NCBI RefSeq assembly: GCF_004784475.1
Contig: NZ_SRRT01000006.1
Coordinates: forward strand, 372,001-436,000
Direction of reading: 5' to 3'
Source: Streptomyces bauhiniae
GTDB taxonomy: Bacteria; Actinomycetota; Actinomycetes; Streptomycetales; Streptomycetaceae
DNA length: 64,000 bases
A model generated the notes under the pieces. That model worked only from the letters and a program-made list of their open reading frames with translations. It had not been told where the DNA came from and ran no database searches. Below, piece by piece: positions 1 through 10,816 of the stretch (the stretch's first letter is position 1; every line of letters starts with the position of its first letter). Position numbers and translations under genes: made by a program.

Positions 1-8
1 AATGGGCG

Positions 9-1037
9 ATGGCCGGGCACGCGACGGAGGAGCATCCCCACGGTGCCGACCGGCTGTGCGGGCAGGGGGACCGCGTGTACTCCCGTGCCGTGCGCCGGGG
101 CCGGGTGCCCCGCGCGGACGCGGAGCCGGTGCCCTGCCTGCTGGAGCTGGCCCTGCTGCACCCCGACCCCGACGACATGGACTGGCTGGTCCCCACCTCC
201 CCGCAGGAGGTGATGACCCGGCTGCTGCGCGGGGTCTACGACGAGGTCAACGAGAGCCGGCGCCGGATGGGCTCGGCGGTCGCCGCGTTCGACTGGTACG
301 CCGGGCTCGGCCGTCAACTGCCCGCCCTCGGCGCACCGGGTGAAGGCTCCGCGATCCGGGTGCTGGACGGACTCACCCGTATCCAGGCCGCGATGGACGA
401 GGCGACCGAGCGGTGCGCGACCGAGGTGCTCACCGTGCAGCCCGGCGGCATCCGGCGCGAGGCCGAGCTGACCGAGGGCCTGCACCGGGCGCTCGAACTG
501 CGCGGCCGGGGCGTCCGGATGCGCGACCTGTACACCCATGTCGCCCGGCACGGCCAGGGGTTGATGACCTACCTGGAGCTGATGGGCGACGCGGTGGAGG
601 CCCGCACGCTGGACGAGGTCATCGACCGGCTCATCCTCTTCGACCGCACGGTGGCCTTCATCCCCGCCAACACCGACCGCACCATGGCCCTGGAGCTGCG
701 CCACCCGGCACTCGTGGAGTACCTGGTGACGGTCTTCGAGCGGCTGTGGCGGCTGGCGATCCCGCTCACCGCCCCGCTGCCCGACACCGGCATCGAGGGC
801 ATCTCGCACCGCGAACGCGCCATCGCCGCGCTGCTCGCCGAGGGCCACCAGGACGCGGTGATCGCCGAGCGGCTCGGCATCAGCGTGCGCACCTGCCGCG
901 CGCACATCGCCCGGCTCTCGGAGACCCTGGGCGCGACCAGCCGTACCCAACTCGGCGTCCGCATCGCCCAGGTGGGGCTGGACGGCCCCTCGCACGGACC
1001 GGCGCCCGCGCCCGCCGAGGGCGTGCCAGCGACCTGA
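9..1037 (+). CDS. LuxR-type helix-turn-helix regulator, copy 1
   Basis: A probable DNA-binding regulator of 342 residues. The C-terminal part (about residues 260-320) reads as a LuxR-type helix-turn-helix, with 'RERAIAALLAEGH' followed by 'AERLGISVRTCRAHI'. The central part, around 'TEVLTVQPGG' and 'LYTHVAR', resembles the sugar- or ligand-sensing TrmB-like middle domain found in many Streptomyces LuxR orphans. It is a paralogue of the convergent gene ending 9 bp away: both share 'LLELALLHPDPDD'-like, 'TVQPGG' and 'ALELRHP' blocks. The ATG lies 8 bp from the window edge, so the true start could be upstream. No receiver domain is visible, so the signal it senses is unknown. Confidence 0.85.
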   Translation: MAGHATEEHPHGADRLCGQGDRVYSRAVRRGRVPRADAEPVPCLLELALLHPDPDDMDWLVPTSPQEVMTRLLRGVYDEVNESRRRMGSAVAAFDWYAGLGRQLPALGAPGEGSAIRVLDGLTRIQAAMDEATERCATEVLTVQPGGIRREAELTEGLHRALELRGRGVRMRDLYTHVARHGQGLMTYLELMGDAVEARTLDEVIDRLILFDRTVAFIPANTDRTMALELRHPALVEYLVTVFERLWRLAIPLTAPLPDTGIEGISHRERAIAALLAEGHQDAVIAERLGISVRTCRAHIARLSETLGATSRTQLGVRIAQVGLDGPSHGPAPAPAEGVPAT

Positions 1038-1046
1038 ACTCCCGCT

Positions 1047-2060
1047 CTAGTCCGCCTCGTTGAGCATCCCGGAGCGGGCGATCAGGTAACCGAGCTGGGC
1101 CCGGCTGCCGCTGCCCAGCGCGGTGGCCAGCTTGGCGATGTGGGCGCGGCAGGTGCGGACGTTCATGCCCAGGCGCCGGGCGATGGCCTCGTCGACATGC
1201 CCCTCCACCAGCAGCTTGGCGATGGAGTGCTGGATGTCGGTGATGCCGTCCGCGGCGGTCTCGTAGGGCGTGCCGGCGCTCAGCGGGACCGCGCGGCTCC
1301 ACATGAACTCGAAGACCTTGACCAGGTAGCGCACCAGGCCGGGGTGGCGCAGCTCCAGCGCGACCTGGCGGTCCTCCTGGACCGGGATGAAGGCCACCGT
1401 CTCGTCGCAGATGATCAGCCGCTCGACCAGCTCGTCGATGGTGCGGTACTCGGCCTTGCCGTCGGTGAAGTGGTCCACGTAGGCGAGGCGGTCGGCGCTG
1501 TAACGGGCGGTGTGCTGGTACAGGGTGCGGATGCGCACCCCGCGCTCGATCAGCGGGCGATCGCGCTCCAGCGCCTCCAGGAGACGGTTCTCGGGGCTGC
1601 GGCGGCCGCCGGGCTGCACGGTGAGCACCTCGGTGCGGCACTGGCCGGTGGCGAGGTCCAGGGCCGCGTTGATGCGGTCCAGGCCCTCCAGGACGGTGAT
1701 GGCGTGCGTGGGGGCGTCCTCGCGGGCGCTCAGCGTCATGAAGGGTTCGAAGATCTCGGAGAGCACGATGGACCGGCGCCGCCGCTCGGCGATCTCCCGC
1801 TCGATCGGGGTCAGCCGCTGGGCCAGCGCGACGGCCGGCGCCACCGGCCGCAGCCAGCCCGGATCGTCGGGGTCGGGGTGGAGCAGGGCGAACTCCATCA
1901 GGCACGGAGCCGCCTCGGCGTCCGCGCGCGGGATGCGGCCGGTGCGCAGCGCGCTCGCGTAGAGGCGGCTTCCTTCCGCGCACATCTCTGTCACCGCGTG
2001 GGGATGTGTCGCCTCTGTCCCGTTTGTTGCCAAATCTCCACCCCCCAGGGTCCTGAACAT
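1047..2060 (-). CDS. LuxR-type helix-turn-helix regulator, copy 2
   Basis: A paralogue of the gene at 9-1037, encoded convergently and of similar length (337 residues from the ATG at 2060). It carries the same architecture: a middle domain with 'TEVLTVQPGG' and 'RTLYQHTARY', then a C-terminal LuxR helix-turn-helix with 'RRLGMNVRTCRAHIAKL'. The start is uncertain. The ATG at 2060 has no clear Shine-Dalgarno sequence. A TTG at 2033 aligns exactly with the start of the paralogue. The gene is divergent from the small secreted peptide gene at 2147, with under 115 bp between them, so it is a natural candidate to control that gene. Confidence 0.82.
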   Translation of the reverse strand: MFRTLGGGDLATNGTEATHPHAVTEMCAEGSRLYASALRTGRIPRADAEAAPCLMEFALLHPDPDDPGWLRPVAPAVALAQRLTPIEREIAERRRRSIVLSEIFEPFMTLSAREDAPTHAITVLEGLDRINAALDLATGQCRTEVLTVQPGGRRSPENRLLEALERDRPLIERGVRIRTLYQHTARYSADRLAYVDHFTDGKAEYRTIDELVERLIICDETVAFIPVQEDRQVALELRHPGLVRYLVKVFEFMWSRAVPLSAGTPYETAADGITDIQHSIAKLLVEGHVDEAIARRLGMNVRTCRAHIAKLATALGSGSRAQLGYLIARSGMLNEAD

Positions 2061-2071
2061 GCAGGAACATG
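2055..2071. promoter_or_regulatory. Direct repeat GAACATG, candidate operator
   Basis: Two copies of GAACATG start exactly 10 bp apart (2055 and 2065), between the divergent LuxR-type gene and the DTRWD peptide gene. Spacing of one helical turn is typical of tandem regulator half-sites. Binding by either LuxR-type protein is an inference. Confidence 0.3.
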
Positions 2072-2146
2072 ATGCACCGATCGTGTGGCGATGATGTGCC
2101 TGAATGAGCCATCGTCTAACTCGACGGGGGAAGAGGGGACTTTCAA

Positions 2147-2404
2147 GTGAGGACGAAGCCGACCATGCGTAACAGAATGCTTCGCTCGGCGCTTGTTGCC
2201 GCTCTCTCCGCCGTTGCGGCCGTCGGAACACTGGCGGGCCTCTCCGGTGCGACGAGCGCGCACTCGCCGGGTGACGGGGGGGCCGCGACAGCGGCGGGCG
2301 TTCAGGACACCCGGTGGGACACCGTGCCGGCGGACACCAGGTGGGACACCACACCCGCGGACACGAGGTGGGACGTCGCCCCGCTCGACACGCGGTGGGA
2401 CTGA
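2147..2404 (+). CDS. Small secreted peptide with four DTRWD repeats
   Basis: An 85-residue precursor-like protein of a family I do not recognise. The GTG start is preceded by AGAGGGG about 7 nt upstream. Residues 1-38 form a classical Sec signal peptide: basic N-terminus, a hydrophobic core rich in Ala/Leu/Val, and a likely cleavage near ATSA. The mature part ends in a precise 9-residue repeat, DTRWDTVPA, DTRWDTTPA, DTRWDVAPL and a final DTRWD that abuts the stop codon. The 27-bp units start at 2306, 2333, 2360 and 2387. The next gene starts 5 bp downstream, so the two are probably co-transcribed. A signalling peptide, a multi-core modified peptide and a surface peptide are all possible; no modification enzyme is visible nearby. 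Confidence 0.75.
   Translation: MRTKPTMRNRMLRSALVAALSAVAAVGTLAGLSGATSAHSPGDGGAATAAGVQDTRWDTVPADTRWDTTPADTRWDVAPLDTRWD
2306..2401 (+). repeat. 27-bp in-frame repeat encoding DTRWDxxPx
   Basis: Three full 27-bp units plus a 15-bp final unit at the 3' end of the small peptide gene. The protein units are nearly identical while the codons vary (for example CGG, AGG and CGG for Arg). This suggests selection on the peptide rather than a recent duplication. Confidence 0.85.
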
Positions 2405-2409
2405 TCACC

Positions 2410-2745
2410 ATGACCACGCCTCCCGACGACCGCTCCTTCCGTCGTGAGATGGCCACCGCCTACCGCTCCGGCTGGCACTTCATCGACCTGGTCACCGCCA
2501 TCCCCCACAGCGGCGACTCGTTGATGGTGACGGTGTTCGGCGAGCCGGTGGTGGTCACCCGGGACGAGGACGAGGACGTACGGGCGTACCGCTGCCTGCG
2601 CAAGCCACGCGGCGCGCCGCAGCCGGTGCGGTGTGCCGTCCGGTACGGCATGATCTTCGTCAATCTGGACCAGCGGGACCACCGTCTCGCGGAGCCCGAG
2701 GTCGCCGACCTCAGGACCACAACTGCCACCCCCCGCAGTGCCTGA
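2410..2745 (+). CDS. Rieske-fold-like small protein without Fe-S ligands
   Basis: A 111-residue protein resembling the N-terminal Rieske domain of ring-hydroxylating oxygenases. It has 'SGWHFIDLVTAIP', then 'VFGEPVVVTRDED' and 'VRAYRC', and ends with 'RYGMIFVNLD'. The expected ligand pairs CxH and CxxH are absent: the two cysteines seen lie in 'YRCLRKPRG' and 'VRCAVRYG', without the paired histidines. It should therefore not bind a [2Fe-2S] cluster in the usual way. It begins 5 bp after the DTRWD peptide gene and is likely translated from the same mRNA. The link to Rieske proteins is made from sequence pattern only; its role is unknown. Confidence 0.65.
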   Translation: MTTPPDDRSFRREMATAYRSGWHFIDLVTAIPHSGDSLMVTVFGEPVVVTRDEDEDVRAYRCLRKPRGAPQPVRCAVRYGMIFVNLDQRDHRLAEPEVADLRTTTATPRSA

Positions 2746-2789
2746 CGCGATTCCCCCGTCGTAAAAGATCGCCTCAGGTACTTCCCCCC

Positions 2790-2836
2790 GCAGCGGCGTC
2801 ACCGTGACCTGAACACGGTGACGCCGCTGCAGTTTC
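2790..2836. terminator. Strong hairpin, likely bidirectional terminator
   Basis: A perfect 17-bp stem (2790-2806 with 2814-2830) closes a 7-nt loop and is followed by a short T-rich stretch. It sits between two convergent genes, the Rieske-like gene and the PPOX gene, as expected for a shared terminator. Confidence 0.8.
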
Positions 2837-2884
2837 TGCGCATATTTCGGGGTTTCGGCACTCCGGCCACGTGGCCGGAATTCT

Positions 2885-3298
2885 TCAGCCGTGCCCGAGC
2901 GCGCGTTCCACCTCGATCTCCAGGGCGACCCGCAGCGGGTTCTCCCGCGGCTCGCGGCCGTACCGCTCGGTGAAGCGGCGTTCCGCCTCCGCGACCGCCT
3001 CCCGGTCCTCGCGCACCCGCGCCCGCCCCTCCAGCGTGGCCCAGCGCCGGCCGTCCACCTGGCACACCGCCACCCGCGCCCCTTCCTCCCCGGCCGCGCG
3101 CACCAGCGCCGCCTTGGTGCTGGTGCCGCTGGTGATGACACGGGCGATCCCGGCCTCGGGGTCCCAGGTCACGCACACCGGCACCACGTGCGGGCTGCCG
3201 TCCGGGCGCAGGGTGGTGAGCGTGCTCAGGTGCCGTTCCCGCCAGAAGGCGACGTACGACTCGTCCGGTGCGTCCAGGTCCACGGAGTATGAGGGCAT
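2885..3298 (-). CDS. PPOX-family flavin/F420-dependent oxidoreductase
   Basis: A 137-residue protein of the pyridoxamine-phosphate-oxidase-like split-barrel family. Typical elements are 'RHLSTLTTLRPDGSPHVVPV' near the N-terminus, then 'SGTSTKAALVRA', and 'GRRWATLEGRARV' in the last strand. Many actinobacterial members use F420 or FMN as cofactor. The substrate cannot be read from sequence. The gene is monocistronic, divergent from clpB and convergent with the Rieske-like gene. Confidence 0.85.
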   Translation of the reverse strand: MPSYSVDLDAPDESYVAFWRERHLSTLTTLRPDGSPHVVPVCVTWDPEAGIARVITSGTSTKAALVRAAGEEGARVAVCQVDGRRWATLEGRARVREDREAVAEAERRFTERYGREPRENPLRVALEIEVERALGHG

Positions 3299-3335
3299 GG
3301 CCGAAACCTAGCCAATCTGAAGTTCCCCGCGCTTA

Positions 3336-3356
3336 ATTGAGCGCACCTGACTCAAG
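3336..3356. promoter_or_regulatory. HAIR-like inverted repeat, probable HspR operator of clpB
   Basis: The sequence ATTGAGC-N7-ACTCAAG matches the HspR-binding element CTTGAGT-N7-ACTCAAG with a perfect right arm, the exact 7-bp spacer and 5 of 7 left-arm bases. It lies about 58 bp upstream of the clpB start. HspR control of clpB is established in Streptomyces; that this copy is active is inferred. Confidence 0.75.
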
Positions 3357-3413
3357 TTTGTGTACACTGGTCAAGTCATCAGTGGAGTAGTGGCGGAAGG
3401 GGAGAACACGCAC

Positions 3414-6011
3414 GTGGACGCCGAGCTGACCAACAGGAGCCGGGACGCGATCAACGCCGCGAGTCAGCGGGCCGTGACGGAGGGGCACCCCGACCTGACG
3501 CCCGCTCACCTGTTGCTCGCGCTGCTCGCGGGGCAGGACAACGAGAACATCACCGACCTGCTCGCCGCCGTCGGCGCCGATCCGGCCGCCGTGCGCGCCG
3601 GGGCCGAGCGCGCGCTCGCCGCGCTGCCCAGCGTGACCGGCTCCACCGTCGCGCCCCCGCAGCCCAGCCGGGAGCTGCTCGCCGTCCTCGCGGACGCCGA
3701 CGAGCGCGCCGGGGACCTCGGGGACGACTACCTCTCCACCGAACACCTGCTGACCGGTCTCGCCGCGAAGGGCGGTGCCGCCGGGGAGGTGCTCCGGGAG
3801 CAGGGAGCCACCGCCAAGAAGCTGCAAGACGCCTTTCAGAAGGCCAGAGGAGGACGCCGCGTGACCACCGCCGACCCCGAGGGTCAGTACAAGGCCCTGG
3901 AGAAGTTCGGCACCGACTTCACCGCCGCCGCCCGCGAGGGCCGCCTCGACCCGGTCATCGGCCGGGACCAGGAGATCCGCCGGGTCGTGCAGGTGCTGAG
4001 CCGCCGCACCAAGAACAACCCCGTCCTCATCGGTGAGCCGGGCGTCGGCAAGACCGCCGTGGTCGAGGGGCTGGCCCAGCGCATCGTCAAGGGCGACGTG
4101 CCGGAGTCCCTGAAGGACAAGCGGCTGGTCTCGCTGGACCTCGGCGCGATGGTCGCGGGCGCCAAGTACCGCGGTGAGTTCGAGGAGCGGCTCAAGGCCG
4201 TGCTCTCGGAGATCAAGGACTCCGACGGGCAGGTCATCACCTTTATCGACGAGCTGCACACCGTCGTCGGCGCGGGCGCCGGGGGCGACTCCGCGATGGA
4301 CGCGGGCAACATGCTCAAGCCGATGCTGGCCCGTGGCGAGCTGCGCATGGTCGGCGCGACCACGCTGGACGAGTACCGCGAGCGGATCGAGAAGGACCCG
4401 GCGCTGGAGCGGCGCTTCCAGCAGGTGCTGGTCTCCGAGCCGAGCGTCGAGGACACCATCGCGATCCTGCGCGGTCTGAAGGGGCGGTACGAGGCGCACC
4501 ACAAGGTGCAGATCGCGGACAGCGCGCTGGTGGCCGCCGCGACCCTGTCCGACCGGTACATCACCTCCCGCTTCCTGCCCGACAAGGCGATCGACCTCGT
4601 CGACGAGGCCGCGTCCCGGCTGCGCATGGAGATCGACTCCTCGCCCGTCGAGATCGACGAGCTGCAGCGCGGGGTCGACCGGCTGCGGATGGAGGAGCTG
4701 GCGATCGGCAAGGAGACCGACCCGGCCTCCCGCGAGCGCCTGGAGCGGCTGCGTCGCGACCTCGCCGACAAGGAGGAGGAGCTGCGCGGGCTCACCGCCC
4801 GCTGGGAGAAGGAGAAGCAGTCCCTCAACCGCGTCGGTGAGCTGAAGGAGCGCCTGGACGACCTGCGCGGCCAGGCCGAACGCGCCCAGCGCGACGGCGA
4901 CTTCGACACCGCCTCCAAGCTGCTGTACGGGGAGATCCCCGAGCTGGAGAAGGAGCTGGAGGCCGCCTCCGAGGCGGAGGAGGAGGCCGCGAAGGACACC
5001 ATGGTCAAGGAGGAGGTCGGCTCCGACGACATCGCGGACGTCGTCGCCGCCTGGACCGGCATCCCGGCCGGCCGCCTGCTGGAGGGCGAGACGCAGAAGC
5101 TGCTGCGCATGGAGGACGAGCTGGGCAAGCGGCTCATCGGCCAGAGCGAGGCCGTACAGGCCGTCTCCGACGCGGTGCGCCGCTCGCGCGCCGGGGTCGC
5201 GGACCCGGACCGGCCCACCGGCTCCTTCCTGTTCCTCGGCCCGACCGGCGTCGGCAAGACCGAACTGGCCAAGGCGCTCGCGGACTTCCTCTTCGACGAC
5301 GAGCGGGCGATGATCCGCATCGACATGTCGGAGTACGGCGAGAAGCACAGCGTCGCCCGCCTGGTCGGGGCGCCTCCCGGCTACGTGGGGTACGAGGAGG
5401 GCGGCCAGCTCACCGAGGCCGTGCGGCGGCGCCCGTACAGCGTGGTGCTGCTGGACGAGGTGGAGAAGGCGCACCCCGAGGTCTTCGACATCCTGCTCCA
5501 GGTGCTGGACGACGGCCGCCTGACGGACGGTCAGGGCCGTACGGTCGACTTCCGCAACACCATCCTGGTGCTCACCTCCAACCTGGGCAGCCAGTACCTG
5601 GTCGACCCGGCGCTGGACGAGGCTACGAAGCGGCAGCGGGTGCTGGACACGGTGCGGGCCTCGTTCAAGCCGGAGTTCCTGAACCGGCTGGACGACCTCG
5701 TGGTGTTCTCCGCGCTCAGCGAGGCGGAGCTGGCCCGGATCGCCCGCCTCCAGATCGACCGCCTCGGCCGCCGGCTGGCGGAGCGGCGCCTCACTCTCGA
5801 CGTCACGCCCGAGGCGCTGGCCTGGCTCGCGGCGGAGGGCAACGACCCGGCGTACGGCGCCCGCCCGCTGCGCCGCCTGGTCCAGACGGCCATCGGCGAC
5901 CGCCTCGCCAAGGAGATCCTCTCCGGCGAGATCAAGGACGGCGACACGGTCCGCGTGGCCCGCGCGGAGGAGGGCCTGAGGGTGGGCCCGGCGACGGGTA
6001 AGTCGCTCTGA
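3414..6011 (+). CDS. clpB: ATP-dependent disaggregase ClpB
   Basis: A Hsp100 chaperone of 865 residues that rescues aggregated proteins in the cytoplasm together with DnaK. The GTG at 3414 is chosen because AAGGGGA lies about 10 nt upstream and the product then begins in the family's usual way ('[12 protein letters not shown]'). The N-terminal Clp repeat domain (about 1-150) is followed by the first AAA+ module with Walker [10 protein letters not shown] near 207. A coiled-coil middle domain covers roughly 400-520, and a second AAA+ module has Walker [10 protein letters not shown] near 609. All key residues are intact. A HAIR-like site lies upstream and a hairpin terminator follows. Confidence 0.97.
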
Positions 6012-6144: not shown

Positions 6145-7449
6145 GTGCTTTTGAGTTTCAGAGTGGCCAATCACGGCTCGCTGCGTGATGCGCAGGAGTT
6201 GAACTTCGTTCCTGCTTATGACGCTGACCGCCCCGCACTGCCCGTGGCGGCGATCTATGGTGCCAACGCCTCGGGTAAGTCGACGGTGATGAACGCGTAC
6301 CAGTTCTTCCTGCGCGCCGTGCGGGATTCCCAGGCCCGCTGGCTTCCGGACGAGCCGGTGAAGCGCCGTCCCTTCCTCCTGGATCACGACAGCAGGCGCG
6401 AACCGTCGAGCTACGCGGTGGATCTACTGATCGACGGGGTCCGCCATGTCTACGGCTTCAGCGCCGGTGACGGGGCTATCGAGGAGGAATGGCTCTACTC
6501 CTACCCGAAGGCCCGCAAGCGCGTCCTCTTCGAGCGCAAGGGCGGCGCGGTGACGTTCGGAGCCTCGCTTACCGGCGAGCGGGTCGCTGCTGAGCGGATC
6601 ATGCGGGCCAACAGTCTGTACCTTTCCGCCGCCGCGCAGTCCGGACACGCGAGGTTGAGTGCCGTGTGGGAGGCCCTGCAGGCGGTCGCGGTTGTCGATG
6701 ACAAGATGCGGCAGGCGCTGCCGACGGCAGGCTCCATCACCGCGGAAGTGTTCGACTTCTTCGAGAGGATGGGTATCGCGCGGGCCGAGGAACTGCTGGC
6801 GGCTGCGGATCTCGGAGTGCACGGCGTGCGGCCGAGCCAGGAGGACGATCCAGGACTCCAGCGTTACGCCGCCGAGTTCATGCGACTGCAGACTCAGGCG
6901 GGCCTCAGCGACGAGTTCACGGCATCGCTCACGCGGTCCATGAGCAAGTCGCTTCGATTCGTCCACCGGGTCGAAGACGAGGAGTTCTTGCTGACGGCCG
7001 AGGACGAGTCCGCCGGAACAAAGACCTGGCTCACCTTGGTCACCTTCTCGCTTCTCGCGATCGGCCGTGGCTCGCAACTGTGGATCGACGAGGTCGATGT
7101 CAGCCTGCACCCTTTGCTGACCGCCAAGCTCGTCAAGCTCTTTCAGAGCGCCGAAATGAACCCGCTCGGCGCCCAGCTGGTCTTCACCACACACGACGCC
7201 TCGCTCCTCGGCACCATGCTCGGCGAAGAGGTGCTGCGCCGCGACCAGATCTGGTTCGTGGAGAAGGACGCGGCGACCGGAGCTTCGGAGCTGTACCCGC
7301 TGAGTGACTTCAAGCCGCGCAAGGGGGAGAATTTCGAGCGGCGCTACCTCGCGGGAAGCTACGGCGCGGTGCCGCTGCTCCCCGACGGGGCCTTCGAGGA
7401 CATGGTCAAGCAGTACTGGGGGGCACGTGGCAAGGCCGTTTCCGCGTGA
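6145..7449 (+). CDS. AAA-family ATPase, RloA/AbiLi-like defence protein
   Basis: A 434-residue SMC-like ABC-type ATPase. It opens with 'LLSFRVANHGSLRD', as in OLD/RecF-like ATPases. Walker A is GANASGKST (39-47), and a late Walker B 'LWIDEVDVSLHP' (about 312-323) is followed by the switch histidine in 'FTTHDASLLG'. The GTG start is preceded by GGGGG with a 7-nt gap. The downstream gene overlaps it and encodes an RloB protein, the known partner of this ATPase type. RloAB pairs occur in restriction islands and correspond to the AbiL abortive-infection system. A role in phage defence is inferred from family and pairing. Codon use is less GC-biased than in clpB. Confidence 0.85.
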   Translation: MLLSFRVANHGSLRDAQELNFVPAYDADRPALPVAAIYGANASGKSTVMNAYQFFLRAVRDSQARWLPDEPVKRRPFLLDHDSRREPSSYAVDLLIDGVRHVYGFSAGDGAIEEEWLYSYPKARKRVLFERKGGAVTFGASLTGERVAAERIMRANSLYLSAAAQSGHARLSAVWEALQAVAVVDDKMRQALPTAGSITAEVFDFFERMGIARAEELLAAADLGVHGVRPSQEDDPGLQRYAAEFMRLQTQAGLSDEFTASLTRSMSKSLRFVHRVEDEEFLLTAEDESAGTKTWLTLVTFSLLAIGRGSQLWIDEVDVSLHPLLTAKLVKLFQSAEMNPLGAQLVFTTHDASLLGTMLGEEVLRRDQIWFVEKDAATGASELYPLSDFKPRKGENFERRYLAGSYGAVPLLPDGAFEDMVKQYWGARGKAVSA

Positions 7450-8017
7450 GGGGTCGGGCCGCCGACGCGGTCCCGTCCGGCGCTCGGCGCGCACGCTCCT
7501 GATCGTCTGCGGCAGCAAGGAGACCGAGCGCCAGTACTTCCAGGGCCTGCGCGAACAGTTGCGAAATCCCGCTGTGTCCGTCGTCGTGCGAGGTAAGGCG
7601 TGCTCCCCTACGCAGTTGGTCGCCTACGCCAAGACCCAGCGCAGCCTGGGCAAGGACAGCTTCGACGAGGTCTGGTGCGTCTTCGACGTGGACCAGTTCC
7701 CCGATGTGTCGACGGCCGTCGCCACCGCACGCCGCGCAGGCATCCGGGTGGCGGTCTCCCACCCGTGCTTCGAGCTGTGGCTGCTGCTCCACTTCACCGC
7801 GCACACGGCCCACGCGGCGACGTACAAGGCCCTGCTGCCGATCCTGCGCAAGCATGTGCCGGAGTACGACAAGACGCGCATCGACTTCGCTGTGTACCGA
7901 GACGGCCGAACCGACGCGATGGAACGTGCCCGCAAGCTGGACTCCAGCGGGCAGGACTACGCCCGGAATCCGTCGACCGGTGTATGGCAGCTCGTGGAAC
8001 GGATGGAAGAGCGCTGA
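7427..8017 (+). CDS. RloB/AbiLii-like protein, predicted Toprim-fold nuclease partner
   Basis: A 196-residue RloB-family protein. The family signature is clear in 'RTLLIVCGSKETERQYFQG', where the glutamate is the expected first acidic Toprim residue. It continues with 'EVWCVFDVDQFPD' and 'VAVSHPCFELWLLLHF', all typical of RloB. The GTG at 7427 overlaps the ATPase gene by 23 bp, indicating translational coupling. In related ATPase/Toprim pairs the ATPase senses infection and the Toprim protein is the toxic nuclease; that this pair works the same way is an inference. Confidence 0.82.
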   Translation: MARPFPREGSGRRRGPVRRSARTLLIVCGSKETERQYFQGLREQLRNPAVSVVVRGKACSPTQLVAYAKTQRSLGKDSFDEVWCVFDVDQFPDVSTAVATARRAGIRVAVSHPCFELWLLLHFTAHTAHAATYKALLPILRKHVPEYDKTRIDFAVYRDGRTDAMERARKLDSSGQDYARNPSTGVWQLVERMEER

Positions 8018-10342: not shown

Positions 10343-10816
10343 TCACGGGGTGAGCTTCCACTGCATGTACTTTGTGTTGCTGGTCCTCTTGCCGCAGAGG
10401 GGCTTCCCGCTCACCGTCTTGAAGTACTTTCCTGGTGCGGACATGTATGTGGTGTGATTGAGGCGCTTGTCGTTCATCGTGATGACAGTTGCCTTGTCGC
10501 AGGTCGTGCCCAGGGGGGCCTTCTCGGACCGCGTGGGCGCACTCAGACACCACCCGCCGAGCTGATTGGCAAGGCTGGCGACTTTCGTACCCTCGGCTGC
10601 CCAGTACTGGGAGTACTTCTTCTGGCAATTGGCGAATGTGACGTTCTTGCCGACTCCGTTCCACTGGAGGCACTTTCCCGTGGTGGCGCTCTTGAGATGC
10701 CAAATGAGGGGCCAAGAGGCGCTGGCCGGCTGTGTCGGACCGAACGCAGTGAATCCAAGCGCGAGCGCCATGGCGCCCGTTGCGATGGTCGACGTGGTCT
10801 TGTTGAAGAGTTTCAC
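10343..10816 (-). CDS. Small secreted ricin-type (beta-trefoil) lectin-like protein
   Basis: A 157-residue secreted protein. Residues 1-33 form a Sec signal peptide ending in PASA before 'SWPLIWH'. The mature domain of about 124 residues has 'TGKCLQWNGVG', 'FANCQKKYSQYW' and 'GGWCLSAP', the CLxxN/C...QxW pattern of ricin-B-like beta-trefoil repeats, with five cysteines in all. Codon use (for example AAA, AAT, ACT) is much less GC-biased than in the surrounding core genes, which suggests acquisition by transfer. No enzyme domain is attached. Carbohydrate binding is inferred from the fold only. Confidence 0.7.
   Translation of the reverse strand: MKLFNKTTSTIATGAMALALGFTAFGPTQPASASWPLIWHLKSATTGKCLQWNGVGKNVTFANCQKKYSQYWAAEGTKVASLANQLGGWCLSAPTRSEKAPLGTTCDKATVITMNDKRLNHTTYMSAPGKYFKTVSGKPLCGKRTSNTKYMQWKLTP

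Follow-up and report, generated by a model that had tools for sequence, protein, structure and literature searches.

A putative species-specific peptide pheromone precursor and its proposed divergently encoded receptor in Streptomyces

A small gene of Streptomyces bauhiniae, lying in the 64,000-nucleotide stretch of DNA analysed here (the window, from a genome assembly of 6.7 Mb), probably codes for a protein from which a species-specific peptide pheromone is cut, and the receptor of that peptide is probably R2, the product of the divergently oriented regulator gene beside it. This proposal is an inference; all of the evidence is sequence, with one genome per species, and no expression, secretion, mass or binding data are available. 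The module consists of divergent R2, the precursor gene and RI, which encodes a small degenerate Rieske protein (Table 1).

Table 1. Features of the module and its surroundings (positions in the window)
Feature	Position	Strand	Basis or remark
R1, paralogue of R2 (52% identity)	9..1037	+	Internal control
R2, divergent one-component regulator (TrmB-like wHTH, PLD-like sensor, LuxR/GerE HTH), proposed receptor	1047..2060	-	Matched in 165/165 loci; model; covariation
Segment of R2 (residues 152-163, columns 151-162) that covaries with core positions 3 and 5	1572..1607	-	
R2 residue 145 (alignment column 144), Val in the window, tracks core position 2	1626..1628	-	
86-bp region between the divergent start codons, strongly conserved	2061..2146	.	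Alignment of 165 loci
Putative peptide precursor, 85 aa, GTG start	2147..2404	+	Family profile matches 264/392 Streptomyces genomes
Signal-sequence-like N-terminus (basic n-region, hydrophobic core)	2147..2251 (end approximate, cleavage site undetermined)	+	Simple hydropathy test
Core copy 1, DTRWD	2306..2320	+	
Core copy 2, DTRWD	2333..2347	+	
Core copy 3, DTRWD	2360..2374	+	
Core copy 4, DTRWD, abuts the stop codon	2387..2401	+	
RI, 111-aa Rieske-like protein, C-x-R ... C-x2-R	2410..2745	+	165/165 loci; profile match to Rieske dioxygenase alpha subunits

The ORF at 2147-2404 (plus strand) reads VRTKPTMRNRMLRSALVAALSAVAAVGTLAGLSGATSAHSPGDGGAATAAGVQ-DTRWDTVPA-DTRWDTTPA-DTRWDVAPL-DTRWD-stop; the copies of DTRWD begin at residues 54, 63, 72 and 81, so that three 9-residue units are followed by a terminal unit of 5 residues. 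This reading bears out the original prediction of a secreted-type ORF with four DTRWD copies, the last of them at the stop codon, and so does the codon usage, which was said to differ between the copies: DTR is written GAC-ACC-CGG, GAC-ACC-AGG, GAC-ACG-AGG and GAC-ACG-CGG in turn, with both the Thr and the Arg codons varying. When the residues of the precursor were shuffled, any tetramer occurred four or more times in 15 of 100,000 shuffles. Scans of the precursor against Pfam and NCBIfam gave nothing useful (two NCBIfam matches, with E values of 0.06 and 0.2, were taken as chance), and weak matches of the 85-aa query within long frames of the window genome and other genomes were dropped as low-complexity. 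The ORF is considered to be a real gene because 165 non-identical loci keep its N-terminus, the divergent R2 match and the downstream RI.

A profile made from 16 precursor sequences was searched against 392 Streptomyces genomes and found the precursor in 264 of them, with one match each among the matches listed; the 24 named loci with a precursor relative were all from Streptomyces. The 165 non-identical loci that were read (the classical set) share a conserved precursor N-terminus (VRTKPTMRNRMLRSVLVAAFSAVVA and variants), and the start of RI overlaps the precursor stop codon or lies within 6 nt of it in 165/165, which makes coupling of the precursor and RI likely. RI itself was found in 321 of the 392 genomes, including all 264 precursor-positive ones. 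In the 57 genomes with RI only, together with one further genome, a divergent precursor precedes RI in 58 of 59 RI loci (repeats include EPTWE, EPSWG, DPGWH and DITWE; the R2 match is partial in one of these loci, L272); the remaining locus, L290, is an additional RI copy within a single genome, with neither R2 match nor precursor, and was left out of the counts. Of 200 genomes drawn from the family, 51 had RI, all of the same genus; none of the 16 other genera in the draw gave a match.

The core itself differs from species to species. DSKWD, DTVWD, NSSWP, DSHWP, DSVWP, DTGWT, DLSWS and others take the place of DTRWD elsewhere, NTVWP is the predicted ligand in S. violaceoruber (L060), and 73 distinct majority pentapeptides were counted in 218 loci (the core of a precursor was taken as its majority tetramer; five classical precursors contain a second Trp tetramer). 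Classical precursors carry from 1 to 18 copies. The check on whether homologues keep the repeat therefore came out divided: a repeat is common, with multiple copies in many homologues, but DTRWD is only one of 73 variants, and, as 48 of the 165 loci have a single copy, repetition is not required.

The edges of the putative mature peptide were sought by comparing the copies within each precursor. In 169 multi-copy precursors the identity between copies, read from position -3 to position +1 relative to the Trp, was 0.99, 0.98, 0.97, 1.00 and 0.82, and just outside it dropped to 0.26 (-4) and 0.31 (+2); the identity between precursors at the same five positions was 0.58, 0.31, 0.18, 1.00 and 0.14. 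Note that the value of 1.00 for Trp arises by construction, and that the search pattern limits position -3 to D, E or N. Of 117 multi-copy precursors, 24 have copies that disagree at position 5. At the DNA level, 437 of 687 copy pairs differ across the three codons preceding the Trp, and when copies within one precursor are compared, 529 of the codon differences are synonymous and 34 non-synonymous; together with the identity edges at five residues, this supports the earlier claim that identical short products are selected for. In 68/165 loci (the window's included) the final copy runs to the stop codon, a single residue past the Trp. The first copy begins at index 41 in 104/165, and is preceded by DVRA in 30 loci and by DARA in 10. 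The identity edges, the synonymous excess, the C-terminal end after the Trp and the shared start of the first copy point to a mature form that would be a pentapeptide, [D/N/E]-x-x-W-x, near-identical within a precursor and different between species. All 165 classical precursors passed the test for a basic-plus-hydrophobic N-terminus (simple hydropathy, without a dedicated predictor). The first core directly follows [AVTISG]-x-A in only 83 of the 165, the window's not among them, and other proteases would therefore be needed.

R2 is a protein of 337 aa, and an R2 match is present in 165/165 Streptomyces loci on the opposite strand, upstream of the precursor; its start codon lies 86 bp from that of the precursor in the window and at a similar distance among the loci listed. 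The region between the two start codons likely holds the promoters and an operator, although this is inferred and promoter function has not been shown. A degenerate 25-mer derived from it found no second genomic site at up to 3 mismatches, so that no regulon was found, and a consensus search found no sigma-70-like promoter or terminator (uninformative for Streptomyces). The structural model of R2 (mean pLDDT 78.5, pTM 0.50) consists of a winged HTH, a long helix, a PLD-like domain (about residues 118-262) and a LuxR HTH, with a loop of low confidence at residues 151-160 (pLDDT 58). The best solved structures in a fold search with the model were TrmBL2 and PLD-fold proteins. R2 matched TrmBL2 by profile (E 9e-5) and by fold (residues 22-261, Z 16.5, rmsd 13.4, 229 aligned); fold alignments over both domains (wHTH and PLD-like) have a high rmsd of about 10-13, and the single PLD-like domain fits well (NucT: Z 16.0, rmsd 2.4, 135 aligned). 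The C-terminal HTH, almost invariant, falls below the Pfam GerE cut-off in R2 (17.2 versus 23.5 bits; R1 is above it with 40 bits) but is also supported by an HTH profile and by fold matches, with residues 270-336 aligned to VqmA (6kju) at Z 11.3 and rmsd 1.7. A Pfam scan of R2 gave no tetratricopeptide repeat (TPR) and only weak HTH matches, and the modelled sensor is alpha/beta PLD-like, not made of helical repeats.

The proposed pairing of R2 with the peptide rests on covariation between them. From 223 loci, 218 were retained after removal of duplicate rows and of loci whose R2 did not exceed 300 aa or whose RI was shorter than 91 or longer than 139 aa (alignment column n corresponds to R2 residue n+1). 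Column 144 follows core position 2 closely: Ser goes with Met in 100/100 loci, Thr with Val in 50/52 (Leu in two NTQW loci), and Pro with Leu in 51/51, although the Pro loci descend from very few changes. Among the rarer letters at position 2, Leu occurs with Val in 5 loci and with Ala in 2, Ile with Val in 5 and with Leu in 1, and Val with Val and Ile in 1 each. Nearest pairs of loci were also compared. The core differs in 35 of 109 pairs, of which 100 were kept (nine outside the distance range 0.01-0.25 were dropped), and a difference at column 144 is seen in 12 of the 31 core-different pairs and in none of the 69 core-same pairs (p 1.3e-7). Core-different pairs are more distant on average (0.124 versus 0.068), but none of 200 distance-blocked permutations reached the observed signal of this column. 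Six of the next nine columns lie within 151-162; columns 30 (p 1e-5), 190 and 112 lie outside this segment.

Co-changes were counted by parsimony on a tree built without R2 columns 139-172. Of the 30 changes at column 144, 23 share a branch with one of the 36 changes at position 2 (hypergeometric p 4e-23; next-best column, p 3.6e-4), and the matched events include 14 of Ser to Thr with Met to Val, plus 4 reversals; 13 changes at position 2 and 7 at column 144 remained unmatched. The best tree matches of core position 3 are columns 154, 162 and 159 (p 5e-9 to 1e-6, column 154 having p 5e-9), followed by column 160, and column 76, outside the segment, matches as well (p 3e-5); those of core position 5 are columns 155, 158, 200 and 190 (p 3e-11 to 6e-6, column 155 having p 3e-11). 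Note that these hypergeometric p values treat branches as equal and serve as a ranking more than as probabilities. By letter, His at position 3 goes with the segment QPSD(D)R[F/Y/G]SE in 11/11 loci and Ile with Val at column 159 in 7/7, but His-like segments and column-159 Val occur with some other cores too. The natural reading is that R2 residue 145 would contact core position 2 and residues 152-163 positions 3 and 5. The original prediction had left signalling peptides and modified peptides side by side; the covariation with the neighbouring regulator favours the former, and the latter found no support, with no RiPP enzyme in the four neighbouring genes scanned.

R1 and RI served as controls. 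Among 87 R1 sequences, 23 have a gap at the site, mostly from the ends of stretches; the sequence around the site is the same as in R2, but in the 64 readable cases the equivalent position is Val in 63, with Ser (45) and Thr (18) cores alike, and Met with a Ser core in one, and the loop is nearly constant. The best nearest-pair p of RI is 8e-4. On the tree, RI residue 76, beside the second Cys, co-changes with position 2 (5 of 6 changes, p 1.7e-5), so either RI may take part or the RI control is not clean. Among loci with sufficient flanking sequence, extra R2 paralogues were found close to R2 and in its orientation (78 sequences, e.g. L038-L061; some loci have two, and one is a fragment). Their loops differ greatly between species and, judged by eye, do not follow the local core; these paralogues may be orphan or eavesdropping receptors. 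The other R2 paralogues of the window genome (two in C12 and one in C3) have no nearby small ORF with repeated [D/E/N]xxW.

The pairing was also found beyond Streptomyces. R2-like genes are present in 71 of 246 genomes of the class and, at E 1e-60, in 200 of 294 genomes of a second actinobacterial family (f28). The f28 sample comprised 110 loci and nine from the survey of the class; 121 loci were reduced to 113 by dropping L315 (another family), L325 (the window) and six duplicates. The Met rule had been derived from Streptomyces, and eight of the f28 loci had already been inspected when the full test was run. In 107 of the 113 distinct loci the R2-like gene faces a convergent small ORF that encodes a hydrophobic N-terminus and [D/E/N]xxW; the other six have no precursor by the rule used. 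In 97 of the 107 precursors a core lies 0-2 residues after A-x-A, in 49 of them immediately (e.g. APAHA-DTSWG). At the equivalent of column 144, Met is found in 19/24 Ser cores (the five exceptions are all Leu) versus 0/68 Thr cores (Fisher 2e-15), and in nearest pairs this column ranks first of 202 (p 2e-4). The Thr-Val part of the rule fails to carry over because the 68 Thr cores of f28 have mostly Leu (Leu 51, Ile 7, Ala 5, Val 3, Thr 2). RI was not found in the f28 stretches examined, and the receptor and the peptide thus look like the older pair.

R2-like genes are common on plasmids (111 records, all below 60% identity), and no R2 relative was found among phage records at E 1e-10. Of four plasmid loci inspected, one has a mini-precursor with DSAWG at its C-terminus; the R2-like gene near it has Leu and so breaks the Met-Ser rule. 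Taking the Streptomyces and f28 sets together, Met was not observed with a Thr core in either, and Ser cores outside Streptomyces chromosomes sometimes occur with Leu. This DSAWG ORF (44 aa; L436, Streptomyces sp. NBC_00467 plasmid, 4115-4249) follows the plasmid-borne R2-like gene and precedes genes annotated for beta-methylarginine biosynthesis, possibly a peptide-controlled biosynthetic cluster. Separately, on plasmid p2 of Streptomyces sp. W1SF4 (L439), an R2-like gene adjoins an AfsA-related hotdog-domain gene, a neighbourhood that suggests a link of the regulator family to butyrolactone clusters.

On the proposed mechanism, the precursor would be exported through Sec, and signal peptidase and further proteases would release the pentapeptide, with many core copies giving a higher yield. 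The pentapeptide would build up outside the cell and would then be taken up, for example via an oligopeptide permease; about nine oligopeptide-binding proteins are present in the window genome (PF00496, 11 matches, three in one frame), which shows only that uptake is possible. In the cytosol the pentapeptide would bind the PLD-like domain of R2, and the bound R2 would alter transcription of the divergent precursor-RI operon and probably of other genes too. Drift of receptor and ligand together would yield species-private channels.

The alternative that survives best, though we think it unlikely, is that R2 binds the core inside the producer, with uncleaved precursor or its fragments reporting on export or proteolysis and no pheromone acting outside. 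The module is flanked by genes that we take, from their translations, to be dnaK-grpE-dnaJ-hspR and clpB (L291; window 1-6011). Both are parts of the HspR heat-shock regulon in S. coelicolor, as PMC2687793 states for clpB; that paper also mentions a SCO3660-clpB operon, which by position adjoins the module. Such a location would suit a sensor of export or stress, and export of the pheromone is inferred from sequence alone. However, a sensor of this kind needs no species-private letters, and cores that change in 35/109 nearest pairs and take 73 forms are as expected of private signals; the multi-copy layout would boost the yield of free peptide, and a signal-peptidase-like site precedes the core in f28.

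Less probable still, the precursor could give a multi-core natural product (a RiPP or an antimicrobial peptide) that R2 senses. Multi-copy cores behind a leader resemble multi-core RiPPs, and a conserved Trp is a common modification site. The four neighbours scanned (R1, R2, RI and PPOX) are, however, two regulators, the degenerate Rieske protein and an oxidoreductase of the PPOX class. These four, the only ones scanned, gave no match to ATP-grasp, radical SAM, lanthipeptide or YcaO models, and neither a modification nor a transport enzyme is among them, although a remote enzyme is not excluded. Rieske [2Fe-2S] proteins carry C-x-H ... C-x2-H. RI, with a mean column identity of 0.91 over 165 loci, instead has invariant C62-x-R64 and C75-x2-R78 in 40/40 aligned sequences and does not meet the His ligand motif, and its best Rieske match covers only profile positions 5-69. 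Furthermore, the peptide and the R2-like gene persist in the f28 stretches where RI was not found, and the N-terminus of the precursor is of Sec type, not a RiPP leader. Farther along the window, two other observations were made. An AAA_21 ATPase gene followed by one for a RloB-like protein (6145-8017, plus strand; PADLOC models AbiLi, 3e-86, and AbiLii, 5e-28) is a probable, sequence-predicted anti-phage abortive infection pair, and a small protein with a signal-like N-terminus (10343-10816, minus strand) has a weak ricin-type beta-trefoil match (28.5 bits, with a cut-off of 29 bits).

Repeats in secreted proteins are often structural, yet a structural or surface repeat protein that stands beside a regulator by chance is very hard to reconcile with the single copy of 48/165 homologues, with the keeping of only five positions and with specific covariation with a cytosolic transcription factor. 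It is just as improbable that the covariation is an artefact of linkage, with precursor and R2 recombining together as haplotypes: co-transfer of adjacent genes is to be expected sometimes, but linkage should affect R2 columns nearer to the precursor equally or more, and for position 2 column 144 exceeds the next column by 19 orders of magnitude. Moreover, f28, with its convergent gene order, independently yields the same column, and RI, equally close, gives a far weaker signal.

If the pheromone reading is true, a species-private linear peptide channel exists in most Streptomyces, a new input to the biology of the main antibiotic producers, and a new class of peptide receptor (PLD-like) is defined; the 73 pentapeptides with their receptors would provide an unusually clean natural record of a receptor and its ligand evolving together. 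A broader hypothesis, for which we would claim somewhat less than even chances, is that Actinomycetota have a widespread gene-encoded language of short Trp peptides read by PLD-fold LuxR regulators, with a letter-by-letter code that partly predicts the ligand, and that tandem R2 paralogues with hypervariable loops and plasmid R2-like genes listen to other species. If the orphan paralogues do listen to neighbours, interspecies eavesdropping becomes directly testable.

No published description of such peptides or of an R2-type receptor was found; the search covered open-licence literature only, so this absence is no proof, and the string DTRWD gave one unrelated match. Cell-cell signalling in Streptomyces is known mainly through butyrolactone-type small molecules, and gamma-butyrolactones act via a cytosolic receptor; they are enzyme-made small molecules, whereas the peptide proposed here is gene-encoded. 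Butyrolactones are named for Streptomyces (PMC13220807), actinobacterial signals are described as typically small molecules (PMC10075063), and cyclic or modified peptides and butyrolactones are given for actinobacteria, without naming the module's peptide (PMC4748050). The module does not meet the enzyme-beside-precursor criterion of multi-core RiPPs (including graspetides), as far as the four scanned neighbours go. The alpha-factor of yeast is also made from a multi-copy pheromone precursor, with tandem identical copies freed by proteases, but its sequences are unrelated and its receptor is a eukaryotic GPCR.

As for the regulator, R2 shares with the archaeal TrmB and TrmBL2 an N-terminal winged HTH followed by a PLD-like domain (a criterion met by profile and fold), but TrmB senses sugars (title of 2f5t), and R2 adds a C-terminal LuxR HTH and tracks a peptide. 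With LuxR-type one-component regulators such as VqmA it shares the C-terminal GerE HTH (criterion met); their sensor, however, is of another fold, and R2 implies no acyl-homoserine lactone or pyrazine ligand. The RRNPP systems of Bacillota (Rap, Rgg, NprR, PlcR, PrgX) likewise combine a small propeptide gene with an export-like N-terminus, a neighbouring cytosolic regulator and a species-variable short linear peptide, and their adjacency criterion is met, R2 lying upstream on the other strand in 165/165 Streptomyces loci. For two further RRNPP criteria, export of the propeptide by Sec and re-import by an oligopeptide permease, the sequences offer only the signal-like N-termini, the A-x-A sites of f28 and the presence of PF00496 proteins. 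The receptor criterion, as worded in PMC10075063, is 250-500 aa with tetratricopeptide repeats, in place of which R2 combines a wHTH like that of TrmB with an alpha/beta sensor of PLD-like fold and a LuxR HTH; moreover, RRNPP belongs to Bacillota, and the present module to Actinomycetota, with a multi-copy tryptophan pentapeptide. The module would thus work like an RRNPP system but is not a member, because the TPR criterion is not met. A peptide pheromone with a cytosolic receptor is a known principle; the receptor class and the phylum look new.
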